Shown here: positions 7,353-63,550 of the stretch, one piece after another
Position numbering within the stretch: position 1 is the first letter of the stretch
How the letters are laid out: each line of letters opens with the position of its first letter
Source: Carnobacterium jeotgali MS3
GTDB lineage: Bacteria > Bacillota > Bacilli > Lactobacillales > Carnobacteriaceae
Assembly: GCF_000745125.1 (NCBI RefSeq)
Contig: NZ_JQNF01000010.1
Span: 186,001-250,000 of the forward strand
Length of the DNA stretch: 64,000 nt
Direction of reading: 5' to 3'
Notes under the pieces: model-generated
What the model saw: the letters and a program-made list of their open reading frames with translations, nothing else
What the model was told of the DNA's origin: nothing
Database searches by the model: none
Translations under genes and position numbers: made by a program

Positions 7353-8030
7353 TTAATTAGTTTCTCTCAACGTTAAAACGCCGTCTTTCATCACGTAAAC
7401 TTTGTCACAATGGCTAATCAAACGCTCATCATGAGTAACCATTATGGTTGCTTTCTTTTTAATTTTCGTTTCACGTGCTAATATCTCAACTACTTCAAAG
7501 GCTTTTTCAGAATCTAAACTAGCAGTCGGTTCATCTGCTAAAATAACAGAAGGCTCATGATACAAAGCACGCGCAATCGCAACACGTTGACGTTCTCCGC
7601 CAGACAAATCACTTGGGTATTTATCTCTCAAATCATAAATTCCTAATTCTTCTAACAGTTCTTTTTGTTTTTCTTTCTTCACTTTTGATTTTTCAACTTT
7701 ATTGACTAAGTTTAGTTGATCTTTCACAGTCAAAAATGGAACTAAGTTTGACGCTTGCAAAATAAAACCGATTTCTTTGAATCTTAAAGCTGCACGTTCT
7801 TTTTCACTCACATCACTAAATGGTTTTTCGTTAATTTCTACTGTTCCATTTGAAGGCTTTTGTAATCCTCCAATAATTGTCAATAAGGTACTTTTACCAG
7901 ATCCACTGGGACCTATAATAGCAACGAACTCGCCTTCTTCTACAGAAAAAGTGGTGTTTTTTAATGCTTCTATTCGTTTGTGTCCTTCACCAAAAGAACG
8001 GCTTACGTTATCCAATTCTATTAATTTCAT
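7353..8030 (-). CDS. ABC transporter ATP-binding protein (HrtA/LolD-MacB type)
   Basis: An ATPase of 225 residues with Walker A GPSGSGKST, Q-loop region ILQASNLVPFL, signature LSGGERQR, Walker B VILADEPTASLD and switch His in VTHDE. The type pairs with FtsX/MacB-fold permeases. It lies 15 bases after the permease gene and 32 bases before the marR gene, so the three are probably one transcript. HrtA of the haem-exporting HrtBA system belongs to this family; other relatives export peptides or lipids, so the substrate is not certain. Confidence 0.85.
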   Translation of the reverse strand: MKLIELDNVSRSFGEGHKRIEALKNTTFSVEEGEFVAIIGPSGSGKSTLLTIIGGLQKPSNGTVEINEKPFSDVSEKERAALRFKEIGFILQASNLVPFLTVKDQLNLVNKVEKSKVKKEKQKELLEELGIYDLRDKYPSDLSGGERQRVAIARALYHEPSVILADEPTASLDSEKAFEVVEILARETKIKKKATIMVTHDERLISHCDKVYVMKDGVLTLRETN

Positions 8031-8045
8031 TTTTGTTTTCCTCCT

Positions 8046-9137
8046 TTATCCAATTGCTGTTAATGGGTCGATTTTAACGACTGTCCGTACTGAGAATAAT
8101 GCTCCTAAAACAGCTATAACAATAAGCAATGCTGTTATTCCTGCAATAAATAGCCAATTTGTGCTATATGGAACTGCTGCTGGCAGAACAAATGACGTGA
8201 TAACCGTTAAAGTCAAGCCTATTCCCACACCAATAGTAGATAATAAGAATGTTTGTGCAACTACAGATTTAGCGATATAGCCTGAAGAGATTCCTTGTGC
8301 TTTCATTACTCCAAACATACTTGTTTTTTGTAAAGTCAATACATAGATAAATATTCCAATAACGACTGCGGCGATTACGATTAAGAAACCAATCATTAAA
8401 CCGAATGTTAAGACTTGAGCGCTGTATCCAGGTATTTTAAAGATGTAATCCCCAATAGAATACGCAACTAAATCGTCAGCATCTGCAACAACTTTTTTAA
8501 AAGAATCTGAAGAGTCACGAACAACTACTGCACTGATTCGACCATTTTCTGAATCATCACTTGCTTCAAAGCGTACTTCTTGGTATGAGTCAATCGTAGT
8601 GTACAATACCGGTGCCACATTAAACTTAGCATTTTCAGTAAATCCAACTACTTTTACTTCTTTATCGCTTCCAGCAAGTTGAACCTCATCTCCCAATTCA
8701 ATGCCATCTTCTTTATTTAAACTGATGTCAGCAACCACTTCATCATCAGTTTCAAATGCTCGTCCATCTATGACTTCGGGCATAATAAATTCATCTGGAT
8801 CAATACCAAAAAATGTTGCATTTATTTTTGAAGATTCGCCTGTCTCGCCAACTTTTCTAATAACACTAGGCGCTAAACCAAGTAACGCAGTTTCATCTGC
8901 TTTTACTTCTTTTGCTTGTTCAAATGTCAACATAGACATATTGATATTGGTATTTGATTCGTCCGTCAAAACAATCGCATCTGCTTCCCATTTATCCACA
9001 CTTGTTCGATTATCTTGCGCTAAACCATATGCTAACCCTGTTAAAAAATAAACCAAATAGGATACTAATACCATAACCCCAATAATCAATGCAAATCTGG
9101 TTTTTGAATACTTAATTTCTTTCCATGCTAAAAACAT
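8046..9137 (-). CDS. ABC transporter permease, FtsX/HrtB family
   Basis: A permease of 363 residues with the FtsX/MacB layout: membrane segment 1 at about 13-38, a large extracytoplasmic domain (about 40-235), then three C-terminal membrane segments, ending KIDPLTAIG. The N terminus (AWKEI-YSKTRF...GLAYGLAQDN) and the overall single-subunit layout match HrtB-type haem exporters. It is the first gene of the probable exporter-regulator-carotenoid operon, and a promoter with direct repeats lies upstream. The haem assignment is an inference from family resemblance. Confidence 0.8.
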   Translation of the reverse strand: MFLAWKEIKYSKTRFALIIGVMVLVSYLVYFLTGLAYGLAQDNRTSVDKWEADAIVLTDESNTNINMSMLTFEQAKEVKADETALLGLAPSVIRKVGETGESSKINATFFGIDPDEFIMPEVIDGRAFETDDEVVADISLNKEDGIELGDEVQLAGSDKEVKVVGFTENAKFNVAPVLYTTIDSYQEVRFEASDDSENGRISAVVVRDSSDSFKKVVADADDLVAYSIGDYIFKIPGYSAQVLTFGLMIGFLIVIAAVVIGIFIYVLTLQKTSMFGVMKAQGISSGYIAKSVVAQTFLLSTIGVGIGLTLTVITSFVLPAAVPYSTNWLFIAGITALLIVIAVLGALFSVRTVVKIDPLTAIG

Positions 9138-53327: not shown

Positions 53328-55022
53328 TTACAATTTGAAACGTCCAACCATATCAGCTAGATTTTCTGCTAAGTTTGAAAGTTGTTCAGAGCTTCCGGCA
53401 ACTTCCTCCATTGAACTAGTAATTTGTTGTGAAGCAGCAGATGTTTGTTCGACACCCGCAGCAGATTCTTCTGAAACAGATGCAATTTCTTCAATTGAAC
53501 CGTTCATGATTTCACTGTTAACTTTAATACTCTCTAAGTTGTCAGAAATCCCTTTGATATCTTCTACCATTGCCGTAACTGACGTATTGATTTGATTAAA
53601 GGTTTGACCAGTTTTAGCAATTTGACTTGTTCCTTCTTCTACCTCAGCATAACCTGATTGCAGTGAATCACTTACTCTATTAGACTCAACTTGGATTTTT
53701 TCTACAAAACCAGTAATATCTGCAATCGATACAGCAACTTGTTCAGCCAATTTACGGACTTCATCTGCTACCACCGCAAATCCTCTACCATGTTCTCCAG
53801 CACGTGCAGCTTCTATTGCTGCATTCAAGGCCAATAAATTGGTTTGATCAGCAATTTTTTGAATAATAACTACTAAATGATTGATTTCTTGCGTTTGGTT
53901 GTCTAAAATCGCCATTTTTTTCACAGCGTCTTGTACAATTCCGTCTATTTTTGCCATTTGTTGGCTTGTGTCTTCCATGTATTGCTTTCCTTCATTGGTC
54001 ATAGATAACACACCTAGTGAAGAATTTTTGATTTTTTCTCCGTTTTTATTCGTATTTTGGACTTTTTTAGTGAAATTTTCCATAACGACTGCCAAATTGC
54101 TTGCAGTTGTCGCTTGAGTTTCGGAACCAGTTGCCAATTCTTGCATCGTTATTGCTACTTGCTCAGAACCTGATTTCACTTCACTAGCAGATTGAGTTAG
54201 CTCTTCACTATGACTGCTCAACTCTTCAGATGCATGCGAAATTCCCTTCATAACACTTTTAACTGTTTTTTGCATTTTATTCATAGACACACTTAATTTA
54301 CCAGTTTCATCTTTTTCAGTGATTTCTAATGGCTCCAAGCTAAGGTCGCCTTCAGAAATGCTTTGCAAGCGTTTCATTACTACATTTAAAGGCTTTGTAA
54401 TATTATTAGATGTTAAATATGCAACAAGTATAGACAATAAAGATACTAAAACCATAATAACTACACTGATTGTACTAACCTGTTCGCCATTTTCAATCAC
54501 TTTTTGACCAATTTCATTAATTATTTGTTCGCGCTCTTTAGCTAATGTTGAAAATCCTGTAATCAATTCTTTTTCAATTGGTTGTGCTTGTTCTATCATA
54601 ATTTCGTAGGCTTTTTCATTATCGCCTTCGTCATATGCTGCTAACGCTTCATCAGTTAACGTACCCCACTCGAATTTTTTAGCCATTAAATCCTTTACTT
54701 CGGCTGAAGCACTTAATTCCAAGGCTTGATTTTCAAGTGCAATCGTTTCATCTAGTTCATCATTAAATGTCTCTCTATAGGTATCATCCTCATATAGCAT
54801 ATATCCTCTTATAAGGCTTGTACGTCTGTTCATATTTGTTGAAAGTTTTTCATCAACGATTAGCAGATCCAACTCTTTTTCTAATATACCTCTTATTGAA
54901 GTATTTGTTTTATTGATTGAATGGATTGTGTAAAAACTTAACATAAGCATTAGTACAATGGTAACCCCGAATCCCCCTAAAATTTTTGCACGAATACTTT
55001 TAAACTGAAATCTCTTTTTCAT
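53328..55022 (-). CDS. Methyl-accepting chemotaxis protein, first
   Basis: A transmembrane chemoreceptor of 564 residues. TM1 at about 14-34, a four-helix-bundle type sensor (about 35-183), TM2 at about 184-204, HAMP (about 205-258), then the methylation and signalling coiled coil. The hairpin tip [20 protein letters not shown]...[17 protein letters not shown] is near-universal. It passes ligand signals to CheA/CheW at the flagellar motor. It follows its paralogue by 182 bases and no sigma-D promoter is seen in that gap, so it may depend on read-through. Confidence 0.93.
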
Positions 55023-55204: not shown

Positions 55205-56974
55205 TTATACCTTAAATTCTTCAACCATATCAGCTAAACCTTTTGCTAAATCGGCAAGTTGCTCAGAATTTTCAGCAACTTCATCCATTGAACTTGTAAT
55301 TTCTTGTGATGCGGCAGATGTTTCTTCTACCCCAGCAGCTGACTCTTGTGAAACAGACGCAATTTCTTCAATTGAACTGTTCATGATTTCACTATTTACT
55401 TGAATGCTTTCTAAGTTATCAGATATGTCTTTAATGCCTTTCACCATTGTTGTAACGGAAGCATTGATTTTATTAAAGGTATCACCAGTTTTTTTAATTT
55501 GGCTTGTTCCTTCTTGTACTTCTGTATAACCGCTTTGTAAAGACTCGCTTACTTTCATAGATTCGGCTTGAATTTTCCCAACAAATCCAGTAATATCAGC
55601 AATCGATACGGCTACTTGTTCAGCTAATTTGCGGACTTCATCTGCTACTACAGCGAATCCTCTACCATGCTCGCCAGCACGTGCGGCTTCAATCGCTGCA
55701 TTTAATGCTAACAAATTGGTTTGATCGGCGATTTTTTGAATAATGACCACTAAATGATTAATCTCTTTTGTTTGGTTATCCAATGTAGCCATTTTAAATA
55801 CCGCCTCTAAGACGATTTCATCGATTTTAGCCATTTGCTGACTAGAGTCTTCCATGTATTGTTTACCTTCTGCGGTCATAGACAAAACACCCATTGAAGA
55901 GTCTTTAATTTTTTCGCCACTTTTATTGGTACTTTGGACCTTTTTAGTAAAGTTATCCATCACGACAGCTAAATTACTGGCGGTTGTCGCTTGTGCTTCT
56001 GATCCAGTTGCTAATTCTTGCATGGTTGTCGCTACTTGTTCTGAACCTGATTTCACTTCATTTGCAGCTTGTGTCAATTGATTGCTGTGATTCGTTAGCA
56101 TCTCAGAAGCCATTTGAATGCCTTCCATAACTTCTTTTTCCATAACTTGCATTTGGTTGATTGCCATAGCTAATTGGCCTGTTTCATCTTTTTCTGTTAT
56201 TTCTAATGGTTCAGAAGTAAGATCTCCATAGGCAATAATATTCATCCGTTCCATCACTCTTTTAATCGGTTTAATGATTGAATTTGATGTCAATAAAGCT
56301 ATAGCGATACCTACTAGGATAATGATAATGCTGATAATAATGATAGATATCAACGAACGGTTTCCAGAATTCGTAACTATTTGTGCGTCAGCTTTTATAG
56401 ATTCCTTTTGTTCAGTGGACAATTTTTCAAGTTCATTAATCAAATCGTTGGAGTAAGGTTCTACAGATGATCTTAAATAGCTGGCAGCGCCAGCTGTATC
56501 GCCATTGTCGTATCGTTCAAATACTTCTGTCAGTACCATCTGTTCCCAGTCATTACTTCGTGCGACAATTTCTTTTGAAGCTTTCACATCAGACAGAGCG
56601 AGAATTTTCTTTTCATGTTCATGACTTTTTTCAGAATACTGATTAAATAAATTTTTATACATTTGATCTCCAAATAATATATATCCTCGCGCTGCTGCGA
56701 TTCTTTGTGACAGACTGAATGTCAAATCATCATTAACAATTAGAAGTTCTAACTCTTCATCGACCATTTTTTCTGTACTGTCATTTGCTCTCGAAATCGT
56801 CACAATAGTGATTGAAGATAAGATAATGACTAATACAATGACCGTCATAAATGCTAGAAGGATTTTTGTTTTTAAACTCTTAAAATTCATTACTTTCTTA
56901 AATCTTGCTAAATCTAATTCTTTGATCTTCCATTTACCTTTGGTGATGGTTTTATCTTCAATATTATTTTCCAA
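55205..56974 (-). CDS. Methyl-accepting chemotaxis protein, second
   Basis: A chemoreceptor of 589 residues. A 35-residue cytoplasmic lead ([14 protein letters not shown]) precedes TM1 (about 37-58); sensor about 60-205, TM2 about 210-230, HAMP, then the conserved signalling domain, nearly identical to that of the neighbouring receptor from the HAMP end onwards. The sensor halves differ much more, indicating duplication followed by change in ligand specificity. It is preceded by a sigma-D promoter. Confidence 0.93.
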
Positions 56975-57212: not shown

Positions 57213-57929
57213 TTAAACAACCACATATTCTCCCAATGACAGATCGTATTGAATTGCATTGTCATCTTTATTTTCATCCCAGACAATTTTGCCATTTTCA
57301 ATTTCTATGACACGATTGCGAAACTTATCTACTATCTTGCGATTATGAGTAACCATTAAAATAGTCGTTCCTTGTTGATTGATACGGTAAAATAACCGCA
57401 TGATTTCTAAAGCTGTTTTCGGATCTAAATTACCTGTTGGTTCATCTGCAATAATCAGTTTAGGTGAATTAACGATTGCACGTGCAATCGAAACCCGTTG
57501 TTGTTCTCCACCGGATAATTCAGTAGGTTTATCATTGGCCTTATGTTCTAATTCAACGTAACGCAAAGCTTGCATCACCAATGGTTTGATTTCATCCGGT
57601 TCTATACCAATTACTTCTAATGCATAGGCAATATTATCAAATACGGTACGGTCTAGCAATAATTTGAAATCTTGAAAAACGATTCCAATCTGTCTTCTAA
57701 GTTTAGGAATATCTTTTTCTTTCATTTTAGAGATCAATTGACCACAAACCTCAATTTGACCTTTGTTCGCTTTTTCTTCCCGATACAGTAATTTTGCTAA
57801 AGTCGACTTTCCAGAGCCGCTTGCTCCAACTAAATATACAAATTCCCCATCTGCAATCGTCAGATTGACTCCTCGAAGAGCTTTCACTCCCTTAGAGTAG
57901 TTTTTAATCACATTTTTCATTTTAATCAT
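57213..57929 (-). CDS. FtsE-like ABC ATPase, orphan in the flagellar operon
   Basis: An ATPase of 238 residues. Walker [10 protein letters not shown] at 35-43, [23 protein letters not shown] as in FtsE, signature LSGGEQQR, Walker [13 protein letters not shown], switch His in VTHN. FtsE normally partners FtsX to control peptidoglycan hydrolases during division. Here no ftsX follows. Instead it is the last gene of the flagellar set, 116 bases after flhP and before a strong terminator. It may be a second FtsE paralogue serving flagellar assembly through the cell wall, or the only FtsE, separated from FtsX. Confidence 0.85.
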
Positions 57930-58045
57930 GTTTCATCACCTATTTTACCTCAAATTCTTCCCCAACGCCTATTTCGCGTCAACCCAAATCCGATAGTGTA
58001 TGTGCCTAAAGATATTCCTATCTTTTCCTGTTTTGCGACTAAATG

Positions 58046-58801
58046 CTATTGTTTAAATTGATTAATGACTGAAGCCATTTCGTCTGTGCCTTGTGCTACT
58101 TTAAGATTCATTGAATAAGATCTTTGTGCCAAAATCATTTCAGTCATAGAAGAAGCTAAATCAACATTTGAGGCTTCTAAATAATGCTGTTGAATCGAAC
58201 CCTCTCCCGTTCCAAATGCACCGTCATAGCTGAATTTATTTTCTCCAACAGGCTGCATAGCATTTGGTTGAGCTGGGTAAAATAACGGTATTGTTCCGAC
58301 TAACATACTATTATTTTCTGATTGGATGGTTACTTCGCCATTTTCAGCAATGGATACGTCTCCTTCAGGCCATTGGTTGATTGGAATAGTGGCTTGGATT
58401 TCCAAAGTGTCTCCATTATCATTCGTGATCGATTTATCTCCATTGACGTGGAAAGCACCATCACGTGTCAAGTAACGTTCGCCGTTTTCTCCCGTAACAC
58501 CAAAAAATCCTTCTCCAGCAATAGCCAAGTGGTAATCATTTGGATCAGAAACAAGCGCTCCTTGGGTAAAATTCGTAGAAGTTACGGCACTTTTTGAACC
58601 TATTGAAATTCCTGAACCTTGAGCATCAGCCGATAAGTATGCTGCCTCTCCGTTCATGTCATTCAATAGCAATTCATTAAAACTGATATTTTTAGACTTA
58701 TAACCTGTTGTATTGATATTTGCAATATCATTCGATACAACGTCCATTTGATTTTGAATGGCATTCATACCGCTTTTGCTAATGCTTAAAGGTATACTCA
58801 T
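58046..58801 (-). CDS. flhP: Flagellar hook-basal body rod protein, FlhP/FlgG-like
   Basis: A rod/hook-family protein of 251 residues. N-terminal MDVVSNDIANINTTGYKSK is the shared rod motif; IAGEGFFGVTGENGERYLTRDGAFHVN marks the FlgF/FlgG subfamily; C-terminal EASNVDLASSMTEMILAQRSYSMNLKVA is the coiled-coil motif. It forms part of the flagellar rod outside the membrane, exported by the type III apparatus. AGGAGG precedes the ATG. It follows flhO by 12 bases, the order seen for flhO-flhP in Bacillus. Confidence 0.87.
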   Translation of the reverse strand: MSIPLSISKSGMNAIQNQMDVVSNDIANINTTGYKSKNISFNELLLNDMNGEAAYLSADAQGSGISIGSKSAVTSTNFTQGALVSDPNDYHLAIAGEGFFGVTGENGERYLTRDGAFHVNGDKSITNDNGDTLEIQATIPINQWPEGDVSIAENGEVTIQSENNSMLVGTIPLFYPAQPNAMQPVGENKFSYDGAFGTGEGSIQQHYLEASNVDLASSMTEMILAQRSYSMNLKVAQGTDEMASVINQFKQ

Positions 58802-58813
58802 TTTTTCATCCTC

Positions 58814-59572
58814 CTAGACTTTCCCTACTTCATTCACAGCTTTTCTTAACGTTTCGTCTGCTGCACTGAGAGCTTTTTGATTTGCTTCAAAAGCTCTTGA
58901 AACTTGCATCAAATTCGTGATTTCGTCAACCGTTTCTACGTTAGACGTTTCCAAGTAACTTTGTTGCACAACCGTTCCGCCAGTTTGTACGGTACCGCCT
59001 TGACCCGTAAAAAGTGTATCTCCAACTCTTGTTAATCCAGCAGTATCGTCAAAATTGGTAATCATCAAACTCATTCCAGTTCCCGCAATCGTCCCTCTAG
59101 CATCAATCGTAAAATCTGCTCCATCAACTTGAATTGGAGCCGCCTGACCGTTAGCTGTTACCCCAAGAACTCGGTAACCTTCTTGGGTAACCAATTCCCC
59201 AGCATCGTTAACGTTAAAATTCCCATTGCGGGTGTAAGATGTTTCACCATTTGCGGCTTCAACTGTAAAAAAACCGTCTCCTTGAATCGCTACATCTGTC
59301 GTAGAGGTCGTTGCTTTTAAACCGCCTTGATTAAAGTTTTGCACAATCTCATCAATTTGACTGCCAAACGTAAAGCCGCCAATGTCTTGTTGTTGATTTA
59401 ACAATGGTCCGTCTAAATGATTGGACATTATTTCTGATGCTCGCGTACTTTGGATAATTTCTTGCGATTTATAACCAGAAGTATTGATATTCGCTACGTT
59501 TGCACTAATGTTTTCTTGTTTTTTTTGTAGGATATTAATACTATTGCTGAGTGTTGTTAAACTTCTAATCAT
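58814..59572 (-). CDS. flhO: Flagellar hook-basal body rod protein, FlhO/FlgF-like
   Basis: A rod protein of 252 residues. ENISANVANINTSGYKSQE near the N terminus, IQGDGFFTVEAANGETSYTRNGNFNVN in the middle, and YLETSNVETVDEITNLMQVSRAFEANQKAL...AVNEVGKV at the C terminus; the last block is the FlgF/FlhO ending. Starts in an ATGATTAG overlap with the sigD stop, so translation is coupled to sigD. Confidence 0.87.
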   Translation of the reverse strand: MIRSLTTLSNSINILQKKQENISANVANINTSGYKSQEIIQSTRASEIMSNHLDGPLLNQQQDIGGFTFGSQIDEIVQNFNQGGLKATTSTTDVAIQGDGFFTVEAANGETSYTRNGNFNVNDAGELVTQEGYRVLGVTANGQAAPIQVDGADFTIDARGTIAGTGMSLMITNFDDTAGLTRVGDTLFTGQGGTVQTGGTVVQQSYLETSNVETVDEITNLMQVSRAFEANQKALSAADETLRKAVNEVGKV

Positions 59573-60281
59573 CGTATTCTCTCCCCATCGATCCTTTTAA
59601 TTTCAAAATCATTTTGCCATGTATTTGTGAGACCCTAGGAACCGAGATGTCGAAAATATATGCGATTTCTTTCAACGACAACTCTTCAACATAAATCAAA
59701 CTCAAAATGGTTTGCTCGCGCTTATCCAATTGACCCACATGTTTGGTCAACAGATGCTGCCGTTCTTTATCCAACAATGTGTCTTCAGAACCAGTTTCAT
59801 GCGTGTCTTCTAAGAAATCCAATAACTCGATTGAATTGCCATCATCGCTAAACATCACTTTTTCTAGTGAGACAGATGCTAAATTATGGACTGTTTCATG
59901 AATCTTTGCTAAAGATTTTTCGTCTATTTTCAATTCTGCACAAATTTCTTTTTCAGTAGGCGTGCGCATCAGTTCTGCTTCCAGCTTTTCTTTGCCTCGG
60001 TAATACTCATTTAATTTCCCCATCCGTGTACGCGAGACGGGAGCTGTTTTTCTGATTTCATCAATGATTGTACCTTTGATTCTAATGTACGCATACCCTT
60101 CAAAAGGAACTTTTTTCGATTTGTCGAATTTTTCCAGCGCATCCATCAGACCTATGACGCCTATATTGTATAAGTCATCCCGGTCATATTCACTCCGCTT
60201 AATATCGATTCGGTTAACAATTTTTTCTACTAAGGGAAGGTATTTAATGATTTCCTTTTCCCTATCATTTTCGTAATACAT
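59565..60281 (-). CDS. sigD: Flagellar sigma factor sigma-D (sigma-28/FliA)
   Basis: A 238-residue sigma-70 family factor of the FliA group. Region 2 includes RDDLYNIGVIGLMDALEKFD and FEGYAYIRIKGTIIDEIRK; region 3 includes RTPTEKEICAELKIDEKSL; region 4 includes LSLIYVEELSLKEIAYIFDISVPRVSQIHGKMILKLK. It directs late flagellar and chemotaxis promoters; a well-matched site stands before the chemoreceptor gene at 57 kb. No anti-sigma flgM gene is in the window. Confidence 0.93.
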   Translation of the reverse strand: MYYENDREKEIIKYLPLVEKIVNRIDIKRSEYDRDDLYNIGVIGLMDALEKFDKSKKVPFEGYAYIRIKGTIIDEIRKTAPVSRTRMGKLNEYYRGKEKLEAELMRTPTEKEICAELKIDEKSLAKIHETVHNLASVSLEKVMFSDDGNSIELLDFLEDTHETGSEDTLLDKERQHLLTKHVGQLDKREQTILSLIYVEELSLKEIAYIFDISVPRVSQIHGKMILKLKGSMGREYDD

Positions 60282-60371: not shown

Positions 60372-62453
60372 TTATCCATTGATCATGCCGACTGTTTCAA
60401 TAGGAATATCATTTGGCACTTCGTTTAAAGATACCACCGTTAAATCAGGGAAATTATATGAAATGAGATTTTTCATTGCTGGTCTCACTTTTGGTGAAGC
60501 TAATAAAACATGTGGAATTCCTCTTGCCGAAAGTTGGTTGTGAATAGCTGTAATACTGTCAAAAATCTTCGTGACCGTTTCAGGCTGCAGGATCGGAATT
60601 GATCCAGCTGAAGACTTTTGAATGCTGCGTGTAATCAATTCTTCCGTATCTGGCAATATAGTAACCACTTGAAGCACATTTTGTTCATCTAAATACGGTT
60701 TAACGATTGTTCGTTTAAGCGACTGACGTACGTATTCAGTCAACATTTCAATATCTTTGGTCGTATTGCCATAATCGGCTAACGTTTCTAAAATAGTAAC
60801 CAAGTCATTAATCGGAATACTTTCTTTCAATAAGTTTTGCAAGACTTTTTGCACTTCACCTAAACGAAGAATATCTGGAATCAATTCATCTATCACGACA
60901 CCATATTTATCTTTAATGCCTTCTAGCAATTGTTTCACTTCTTGTCGGCCTAACAATTCATAACTCGATTTGTAAATCGTCTCTTTTAAATGAGTCACTA
61001 AAACGGTTATCGGATCGACTACTGTATAGCCTCTTAAGTCAGCAGCTTCGCGGTCACTTTCGTTTACCCACATAGCATCTAAGCCAAAAGCTGGTTCTTT
61101 TGTTGGGATACCGTCAAAATCAAATTCGGTTTCGCCTGGGTCTACGATCATATATTTATCTAAATACAATTCCCCACGAGCCACAGCGTTTCCTCTAATT
61201 TTAATCACGTAATCATTGGCTTTCAACTGCAAATTATCTCTAATACGTATTGGACTCAATAAAATACCTAACTCATGAGCGCTTTGTTTACGGATTGTTG
61301 TGATATGACTCATCAGATTGTTGTCTTGGTTTTCATCCGCTATTGGAATCAAACCGTAGCCAATCTCAATGGAAATCGGATCCACTTGAAAGGAAGCCAC
61401 TGATTCATCTGTACTTTTTTCTTGATTTGTTCGCTGTACAGCTTTTGAGCGCATTTCTTTCGCTTTCTGATTCAATTTTTTAGATTTTTCATTCTCCATC
61501 AATAAGTAACTAGCCGCTCCGGCTGCTGCTCCCAATAATAGAAATGGAACAGTCGGAAAACCAGGCATAATGGCAAATAATAGTAAAATTACTGACAACA
61601 TCATCATTACTTTGAACGAACCGAACAATTCTTCACCGATTGAGCTCCCAAAGCCTTTAATACTTCCAGAACGTGTCACTAAGATACCAGAAGCTACCGA
61701 GATCAATAAGGAAGGAATTTGACTAACCAGTCCATCCCCGATGGTTAACTTCCCAAAAGCCATCAATGCTTCCATAACGGGCATGCCGTTTTGCAGCGAA
61801 TGAATTGCCACTCCACCAATCAAGTTGATCACGGTAATAATGATACCAGCCATGGCATCCCCTTTTACGAACTTACTCGCTCCATCCATAGCTCCAAAAA
61901 ACTGAGTTTCTCGTTCAAGATCTGATCTTCTTTTTTTAGCTTGTTCTTCATTAATTAGCCCTGAGTTCAAATCTGCATCGATTGCCATTTGTTTACCGGG
62001 CATAGCGTCTAACGTAAAACGGGCTGAAACTTCAGAAACCCTACTGGAACCATTCGTTACAACCATCATCTGGATGATGACGATAATGATAAAAATAACC
62101 GCTCCAACAACGAAATTACTTCCTGCTACGAAATTAGCAAACGTATCAATCACTGCTCCCGCTTCTCCTTCAGTTAAAATCAATCGTGTAGAAGAGATGT
62201 TCAACGCTAAACGAAACATCGTTGTGATTAATAGAATCGTAGGAAAAGTTGAGAACTCTAACACATTTTTAGTGAACAGAGTCAGTAATAATATGGTGAT
62301 GGATAACGCTATGTTAATCACTAACATAAAATCGAGTAATCCAGATGGTAAAGGTATAATGATCATCGCTAGAATAGCCATTACAAAAAAAGCTACGATA
62401 ACATCTAGAGAACCGGTTAGTTTTTCTAATTTCCCCCAAAAAGCAGTAGACAT
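60372..62453 (-). CDS. flhA: Flagellar type III export gate protein FlhA
   Basis: A protein of 693 residues. The N-terminal half (about 1-310) has eight membrane segments and the conserved FHIPEP-region block SEVSARFTLDAMPGKQMAIDADLNSGLI near 140-165. The C-terminal cytoplasmic domain (about 350-690) includes GRQEVKQLLEGI and the DLLKE-type VLQNLLKESIPINDLVTILE. It forms the proton-driven export gate with FlhB and FliPQR. Directly followed by sigD; the flhF and flhG genes that lie between them in Bacillus are absent here. Confidence 0.96.
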   Translation of the reverse strand: MSTAFWGKLEKLTGSLDVIVAFFVMAILAMIIIPLPSGLLDFMLVINIALSITILLLTLFTKNVLEFSTFPTILLITTMFRLALNISSTRLILTEGEAGAVIDTFANFVAGSNFVVGAVIFIIIVIIQMMVVTNGSSRVSEVSARFTLDAMPGKQMAIDADLNSGLINEEQAKKRRSDLERETQFFGAMDGASKFVKGDAMAGIIITVINLIGGVAIHSLQNGMPVMEALMAFGKLTIGDGLVSQIPSLLISVASGILVTRSGSIKGFGSSIGEELFGSFKVMMMLSVILLLFAIMPGFPTVPFLLLGAAAGAASYLLMENEKSKKLNQKAKEMRSKAVQRTNQEKSTDESVASFQVDPISIEIGYGLIPIADENQDNNLMSHITTIRKQSAHELGILLSPIRIRDNLQLKANDYVIKIRGNAVARGELYLDKYMIVDPGETEFDFDGIPTKEPAFGLDAMWVNESDREAADLRGYTVVDPITVLVTHLKETIYKSSYELLGRQEVKQLLEGIKDKYGVVIDELIPDILRLGEVQKVLQNLLKESIPINDLVTILETLADYGNTTKDIEMLTEYVRQSLKRTIVKPYLDEQNVLQVVTILPDTEELITRSIQKSSAGSIPILQPETVTKIFDSITAIHNQLSARGIPHVLLASPKVRPAMKNLISYNFPDLTVVSLNEVPNDIPIETVGMING

Positions 62454-62482: not shown

Positions 62483-63550
62483 TTAAATTTTATTTTTATT
62501 TAATTCTTCCATTTGGTAGACCAATGCTAATATTTCAGCAATGGCTTGGTAAAGATCGATTGGCACGGGTTGCCCGATTTCGACCGATTTATACATGGCT
62601 CGAGCGACTGGTTTATTTTCAATAATTGGAACATCGAATGCTTTAGCTCTCTCTCTAATTTTTGCAGCTTGATGATCTGCTCCTTTAGCCACAATGATGG
62701 GAACCTCATCTTTGCCTTTTTCATAACGAATTGCGATAGCTAGATGAGTTGGGTTCGTAATAATGGCTGTGGCTGTTTCCACCTCTCGCAAGGCCCCTTT
62801 TGTTAATTGACGGTAACGTTGTCTCCGTTGCGACTTGATTTGTGGGTCTCCCTCAGATTCTTTGTATTCATCTTTTATTTCTTGTTTAGACATCCGCAAA
62901 TTTTTCCGGTAGTCATAAACTTGATAAATGTAATCCACTAGCCCTAATATAAGCAGTAAGACTCCTAATTGAGTACCTAATTCCATCACAAGATCAGACA
63001 TTAAGAAAAATATTTTTTCCGTTCCAATACTGCTAGAGTTAATAATCAAGTAAATAGAGGTTTCAAGTGTTTTATACGCCATCCAAAAGACAAGTGTTAA
63101 TTTGGCCACATTTTTGACCAGTGTAAATAAAGTTTTTTTACTGAACATATTCTTAAAGCCGCTAATAGGATTGATTTTACTTAGCTTGAATTTAATCGGC
63201 TCCGCAGAGAATAAAAAACCGGTCTGTACAATACTAGAAATAAATGCAGCTACAAAGGCAATAGCTAGAAAAGGTCCAGCTAACACTAAAGTGAATAGAA
63301 TGGCTTTCATTCCAATATCTGCTAAATCATTTTCCAAGCCATCTACTGAGAATCCGGCCGTTAAATAATTTTGTAAATAAAGTAAACTATTTTTCAATAT
63401 GTAATTTCCTAAAAATGTTGCTGAGAGAATAAAAACAATAAACGTAACAGCGGAAGTTAAATCTGGACTTTTAGGAATTTCCCCTTTTTTTCTAGCATCC
63501 CTTAGTTTCTTGGGACTAGCTTCTTCGGTTTTACCATCTTTTTCCGCCAT
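62483..63550 (-). CDS. flhB: Flagellar export switch protein FlhB
   Basis: A protein of 355 residues. N-terminal EEASPKKLRDARKKGEIPKSPDL, four membrane segments (about 32-210), and the cytoplasmic autocleavage site NPTH at 266-269 in TAIITNPTHLAIAIRYE. Self-cleavage at this site switches export from rod/hook to filament proteins. It lies 20 bases after fliR and 29 before flhA. Confidence 0.96.
   Translation of the reverse strand: MAEKDGKTEEASPKKLRDARKKGEIPKSPDLTSAVTFIVFILSATFLGNYILKNSLLYLQNYLTAGFSVDGLENDLADIGMKAILFTLVLAGPFLAIAFVAAFISSIVQTGFLFSAEPIKFKLSKINPISGFKNMFSKKTLFTLVKNVAKLTLVFWMAYKTLETSIYLIINSSSIGTEKIFFLMSDLVMELGTQLGVLLLILGLVDYIYQVYDYRKNLRMSKQEIKDEYKESEGDPQIKSQRRQRYRQLTKGALREVETATAIITNPTHLAIAIRYEKGKDEVPIIVAKGADHQAAKIRERAKAFDVPIIENKPVARAMYKSVEIGQPVPIDLYQAIAEILALVYQMEELNKNKI

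Follow-up and report, generated by a model that had tools for sequence, protein, structure and literature searches.

A second FtsE encoded behind the flagellar rod genes of Carnobacterium jeotgali and other FliA-positive members of its order

The last gene of a flagellar operon in Carnobacterium jeotgali MS3, located in the 64,000-nucleotide stretch of DNA analysed here (the window), encodes a second FtsE-type ABC ATPase, which is referred to as fFtsE (flagellar FtsE). This protein has the fold and motifs of FtsE, belongs to a conserved flagellar operon, descends from a single origin, is maintained by selection and is present only together with FtsX. It may represent a flagellum-dedicated FtsE paralog that acts via the shared FtsX of the cell, a reading that is given roughly even credence and in which the dependence on FtsX is a prediction.

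To our knowledge, the passage of the Gram-positive rod through the thick wall, and the hydrolase that makes room for it, are not settled. The CwlQ protein of B. subtilis is reportedly, by the title of a 2021 study by Sanchez, not required for flagellar assembly. Having the known chemistry of FtsE, probably being made together with rod proteins and being kept across families, fFtsE would provide a concrete gene for the wall-passage question, and, if the reading given above is true, one permease would be served by two ATPases. Text searches of the open-licence literature returned no published description of an FtsE copy encoded within a flagellar operon; the term FtsE was likewise not found in the main-text passages available from two L. 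ruminis papers, one on motility (PMC3393694) and one on the genome (PMC3231920), or from a 2025 paper on the same species (PMC12688256).

Operon organization and genomic context

The fFtsE gene (57213..57929, minus strand) starts at 57929, stops at 57213 and specifies 238 aa; the first-pass annotation had given its coordinates exactly. It closes a series of minus-strand genes in the order flhB-flhA-fliA-flhO-flhP-ftsE. Two of these, flhB (62483..63550) and flhA (60372..62453), were named by their place, known sequence type and blastp-consistent synteny, and the gene for the FliA-type sigma factor (sigma-28; 59565..60281) was recognized by a score of 205 bits against TIGR02479 (cut-off 189.6). 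The following two encode FlgF/FlgG-type proteins that we take to be FlhO (FlgF-type rod protein; 58814..59572) and FlhP (FlgG-type rod/hook protein; 58046..58801), and flhP lies directly upstream of fFtsE in 69/69 loci. Downstream of fFtsE, a terminator-like hairpin (57191-57144, minus strand) with a 20-pair stem followed by a T-run closes the operon, in agreement with the earlier placement of the gene between flhP and the operon terminator. The hairpin scan yielded one hairpin against a mean of 0.6 in shuffled sequence, a count that is close to the shuffles and in itself no proof, and the long stem serves as a supporting point.

Receptor genes follow the hairpin. Two MCP-type receptors of approximately 61% identity are encoded directly downstream of the operon (53328-55022 and 55205-56974, both on the minus strand), and the same placing of both was observed in four relatives of the genus that possess the operon. 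With regard to the rod genes, the ORF lists of the five genomes examined from genus g58 (L189, L227, L232, L240 and L241) contain an FlhO of only 122-146 aa and an FlhP of 220-222 aa, which are shortened rod proteins compared with the length of about 250 aa found elsewhere.

In the window, flhP and fFtsE are separated by a spacer of 116 nt (57930..58045, minus strand). The gap between flhP and the copy across the 69 loci has a median of 18 nt (range -1 to 299), and it reaches 111-299 nt in the 10 genomes of family f1 with fFtsE, the median elsewhere being much shorter. A conserved element around 57935-58011, which is shared by the window and loci L149-L157 and has a single occurrence within the window, contains a short inverted repeat (GACGC..GCGTC) in which one pair is changed on both sides. 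This element may act as a promoter or operator of its own or form a hairpin; an Rfam search of the spacer gave chance-level matches only.

FtsE family membership and the canonical FtsE-FtsX pair

Against the NCBI model for FtsE (TIGR02673), fFtsE scored 293.1 bits, above the curated cut-off of 264.85, which places it in the FtsE family. Its scores against the models for LolD (195.9 bits, cut-off 307.75) and MacB (168.6 bits, cut-off 966) exclude assignment to either, and it falls far under the cut-offs of PhnC and other transporter models. Walker A, the Q-loop, the signature LSGGEQQR, Walker B and the H-loop are all intact in the window copy, so that the clear FtsE features originally attributed to the protein are borne out. 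The best 12 PDB sequence matches are FtsE, with 57-59% identity to the pneumococcal protein. A structure model derived from 48 flagellar copies (mean pLDDT 89.9) is nearest to pneumococcal FtsE (TM 0.90), and its best nine structure matches are FtsE as well.

The genome searched (2.5 Mb in 12 contigs, 99.7% complete) possesses a separate canonical ftsE-ftsX pair on contig C7, and its two FtsE proteins are 54% identical. The possibility that fFtsE is the only FtsE of the cell was accordingly rejected. The first-pass annotation had also described the gene as an orphan with no ftsX partner. This description is valid for the operon and cluster: ftsX does not lie directly 3' of fFtsE, and a Pfam scan of 40 further ORFs of the flagellar-chemotaxis cluster, 38 of which received a family, detected neither an FtsX-type permease nor a wall hydrolase. 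It does not extend to the cell, as the single protein of the genome with the FtsX extracellular domain is encoded on contig C7 directly after the canonical ftsE. Seven further proteins of the genome carry the general FtsX domain, none of them in the flagellar cluster; such permeases might also partner fFtsE, but their usual ATPases lie elsewhere. One pair of an ABC ATPase and an FtsX-domain permease is found at 7353-9137 of the window (minus strand), and another just outside it (C10:178825).

Distribution among FliA-positive genomes

Within the family of the window, FliA was above the cut-off in 13/18 genomes and a second FtsE was present in 10/18. The latter was distributed over 10 of the 13 FliA-positive and none of the five FliA-negative genomes, one of which belongs to the window's own genus; within this family, fFtsE is absent where flagella are absent. 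A sample of 395 genomes from the order comprised 57 with FliA, 50 of which have an FtsE copy downstream of flhO-flhP, and a sample of 397 genomes from family f9 comprised 24 with FliA, including 22 new ones, 19 of which have the copy. When these were pooled, 69 of the 79 FliA-positive genomes carried the flagellar FtsE copy and 10 did not. Two of the latter, at first taken as losses, were withdrawn from that count, since the locus hits a contig end in G195 and reads N in G022, which leaves 77 judgeable genomes. The copy thus lies directly after flhP in 69 of the 77 judgeable FliA-positive genomes of the order, a conserved place within the gene set of the motile Lactobacillales type, and the linkage is by no means unique to this strain. 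A scan of named genomes other than near relatives of the window gave 80 relatives and no flagellar copy among them, with FtsX adjacent in 77/80; the three without adjacent FtsX are L072 and L086, in which contigs end, and L036, in which no flagellar genes were seen by eye.

Four judgeable genomes (G014, G015, G017 and G153) retain FtsX and lack the copy, which implies that their flagella do without fFtsE or have a substitute. In G153 (L233), both flhP and the FtsE copy are missing and flhO is kept; the two genes may have been lost as a unit. In the single-contig genome G099 (L223:10739-11317), the fFtsE frame is broken, leaving 192 aa, which represents either a natural knock-out or a sequencing error.

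Ancestry and selection

In a tree obtained by a short search with no bootstrap, from which the frame-broken G099 copy was left out, a single branch (SH-aLRT 97) splits 68 flagellar copies from 47 canonical FtsE proteins. The window protein clades with the 67 other flagellar copies, separately from the ftsX-linked FtsE of its relatives, and the identity of fFtsE to canonical FtsE is 53-57% at most. Families f2 and f9 are neighbours in the fFtsE tree and again in the FlhA tree, unlike in canonical FtsE, where f2 groups with f8, which indicates that the copy moves as part of the flagellar gene block. The canonical FtsE of f9 groups with that of Ligilactobacillus agilis (SH-aLRT 96), which identifies the order as Lactobacillales. 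Synteny and trees show that fFtsE, after arising once, has been both inherited and transferred along with the flhB-flhA-fliA-flhO-flhP block.

Estimates from four pairs within the genus of the window gave a dN/dS of 0.056-0.070 for fFtsE, compared with 0.050-0.066 for flhP, 0.052-0.083 for flhO and 0.006-0.025 for canonical FtsE. fFtsE is therefore under purifying selection comparable to that on flhO and flhP.

Co-occurrence with FtsX

One protein above the FtsX_ECD cut-off was detected in 75 of the 79 FliA-positive genomes, including 69/69 with fFtsE. A second FtsX was considered and rejected, as each FtsX-bearing FliA-positive genome has one above the cut-off; the second matches in G500 and G553 scored 17.6-17.9 bits, far under the cut-off of 23.5. 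The four genomes without FtsX (G278, G402, G422 and G456), all from genus g70, are also without fFtsE. Their operons still contain flhB, flhA, fliA, flhO and flhP, the last of which is immediately followed by a receptor gene. A search of G278 at E 1e-70 detected no FtsE of any type, and G402, G422 and G456 were searched for FtsX. Because g70 nests among fFtsE-bearing operons in the FlhA tree, the absence of fFtsE there counts as one loss. The resulting table (69 genomes with and four without the copy in the presence of FtsX, none and four in its absence) gives a Fisher p of 5e-5, a value that treats kin genomes as independent when the four FtsX-less genomes constitute one event. Judging from the operon and the species pattern, g70 is probably Periweissella, for which the available part of a published account describes one species as motile and three as not (PMC10745875); if this assignment is correct, fFtsE would be dispensable for flagella in that genus.

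It had originally been suggested that a flagellar FtsE could open the cell wall for the rod or, alternatively, that it partners a distant FtsX. The second proposal is the better-supported half of that interpretation, as FtsX is single in every genome with fFtsE and one genus lacks both fFtsE and FtsX; docking of the two proteins is a prediction.

The FtsX docking surface

In E. coli FtsE, the available passages of one study describe Arg78 and Arg79 as contacting the coupling helix of FtsX and as needed (PMC11491553). The corresponding Arg-Arg pair of the window protein (codons 78-79; 57693..57698, minus strand) is kept, as it is in 65/65 catalytically intact flagellar copies and 47/47 canonical ones, and three degenerate copies all keep Arg79, with Arg78 replaced by Lys in two. 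The ATPases of the two ABC ATPase-permease pairs mentioned above, a control of n=2, do not have Arg-Arg at this position. Some further ABC ATPases, such as MetN, do have Arg78/Arg79. A further candidate marker of docking, Arg94 (an elbow-helix contact in E. coli), was dropped, as Leu occupies this position in 34/47 canonical copies.

The groove of pneumococcal FtsE is lined by regions R2-R4, according to the available part of its description, where the numbering is two higher (PMC7468199). Among residues invariant in canonical FtsE (six positions in R3 and four in R4), the family of the window keeps 97% in R3 and 93% in R4, and the whole f1/f4/f6 lineage keeps 86% and 83%, respectively; the f2/f8/f9 lineage keeps only 32% and 38% at the same six and four positions, versus 80% in the rest of the protein. 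On these residues, the lineage of the window looks like an FtsX-docking ATPase, and the f2/f8/f9 lineage, with its rebuilt permease face, could contact FtsX in another manner or have another partner. The lineage with the rebuilt groove is also the lineage in which FtsX is co-absent, and the two observations are in tension.

Proposed mechanism

If fFtsE acts via the shared FtsX, its production would coincide with that of the rod proteins during expression of the flagellar genes, and it would dock on the only FtsX of the cell, either as a homodimer or together with FtsE. Through FtsX, it would retune an FtsX-controlled peptidoglycan hydrolase, and the outcome could go in either direction: wall opening might be timed with the passage of rod and hook, or division-type hydrolysis might be held back during flagellar construction. 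Speculatively, the C-terminal tail of fFtsE, which is absent from canonical FtsE, may tie it to a flagellar protein. A broader and more tentative proposal, which we consider somewhat less probable than not, regards FtsX as a shared hub with two swappable ATPases, FtsE for division and growth and fFtsE for the flagellum, the latter existing in two forms, with the FtsX groove either retained or rebuilt, and including one small non-catalytic lineage. If true, an ABC mechanotransmitter would have had its motor exchanged for work on a second organelle, and this would provide a long-missing link between the Gram-positive flagellum and wall control.

Catalytic motifs

Residues Gly35, Gly40, Lys41, Gln86, Ser139, Gly141, Asp162, Glu163 and His195 are kept in 65/65 copies outside a degenerate group in genus g20, and complete ATPase motifs are absent in 3/68 aligned flagellar copies. 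In 35 copies of the f2/f8/f9 lineage, the first glycine of the signature is altered (LS-[I,V,Q,A,L]-G). The three degenerate copies, from G084 (L235), G104 (L229) and G111 (L231), have lost Gln86, Gly141 and His195 and kept a 239-aa frame. For the only g20 pair with usable dS, the other two being saturated or near-saturated, dN/dS was 0.115 for fFtsE versus 0.075 for flhP and 0.073 for flhO, so the degenerate fFtsE still appears constrained. These copies are candidate non-catalytic subunits, and the three genomes constitute natural tests of the need for hydrolysis.

Alternative functions

A role independent of FtsX, which is considered unlikely, would make fFtsE a soluble ABC-type ATPase or scaffold whose target is the basal body, the export gate, FlhP or FliA; a variant of the same proposal is that it sets flagellar number or place in bacteria without FlhF. 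The lack of a permease among the scanned cluster ORFs, the rebuilt FtsX groove of the f2/f8/f9 lineage and the persistence of the copy in three genomes after loss of its signature, Q-loop and H-loop residues are consistent with such a role, as is the finding that FlhF reached its cut-off in 0/57 FliA-positive genomes, which covers the FlhF half of the FlhF/FlhG argument. The conserved new C-terminal tail points in the same direction. Flagellar copies extend about 10 residues past the usual FtsE end, canonical proteins mostly stopping at about 228 aa; in the window, the tail occupies codons 227-238 (QYD...GEYVVV; 57216..57251, minus strand). By hand count, [DE]-x-x-x-[VILW] ends 60/69 flagellar copies, with Tyr/Phe at motif place 2 or 3, and the low model confidence over the last 18 residues (pLDDT about 51) is what a short binding motif would be expected to give. 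However, fFtsE has stayed in the FtsE family rather than turning into a free ATPase, both lineages keep its FtsX-contact pair without exception, and no genome lacking FtsX carries it, all of which argue against independence from FtsX.

It is also conceivable, though improbable, that fFtsE functions as a brake with no dedicated wall-opening role, either competing with FtsE for FtsX or forming mixed dimers with impaired ATP sites, such that FtsX-driven wall cleavage is slowed in motile cells. Such a protein would look like a docking but poorly hydrolysing subunit. The replacement of LSGGE by LS[IVQAL]G[QE] in the f2/f8/f9 lineage fits this description, as do the three degenerate copies of family f6, whose signature, Q-loop and H-loop residues are wholly lost and whose groove, comprising six and four positions, is kept better (0.67-0.75) than their ATP motifs (0.51). 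Nevertheless, the ATPase motifs are intact in the window copy and in most of its lineage, where a brake is thus not readable from the sequence.

That fFtsE is a hitchhiker, a spare FtsE held by operon context with no flagellar role, is very improbable: its loss in several lineages and the broken frame in G099 would suit it, but its low dN/dS over five families, limited identity to canonical FtsE, own conserved tail, position kept in nearly all judgeable genomes and co-absence with FtsX, which is not expected of a spare copy, all speak against it.

Comparison with known systems

The closest known relative of fFtsE is the FtsE of FtsEX, for which solved structures exist from S. pneumoniae (6z4w/6z63/6z67), E. 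coli, V. cholerae, P. aeruginosa and M. tuberculosis. Both share the same fold, the ATPase motifs and the Arg pair for the FtsX coupling helix. Unlike FtsE of FtsEX, fFtsE is encoded in a flagellar operon rather than beside ftsX, forms a separate clade, carries an extra C-terminal tail and is under weaker constraint; moreover, the FtsX groove is rebuilt in one of its lineages and catalysis is apparently lost in three genomes. MacB/LolD-type ATPases (type VII ABC systems) belong to the same superfamily and employ the same mechanotransmission principle; however, no permease is encoded alongside fFtsE.

FlhF and FlhG, regulators of flagellar number and place, resemble fFtsE in being of a cytoplasmic nucleotide-hydrolysing type and in being encoded beside flhA/fliA, but fFtsE comes from a different protein family. 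If the preferred reading, in which fFtsE acts via the shared FtsX, is right, it would serve the same step as the FlgJ-type flagellar muramidase of Gram-negative bacteria, namely the passage of the rod through peptidoglycan, as described in the available part of the FlgJ source (PMC6403190). Unlike FlgJ, which is an exported enzyme, fFtsE is a cytoplasmic ATPase, for which a partner would be the only route of action.
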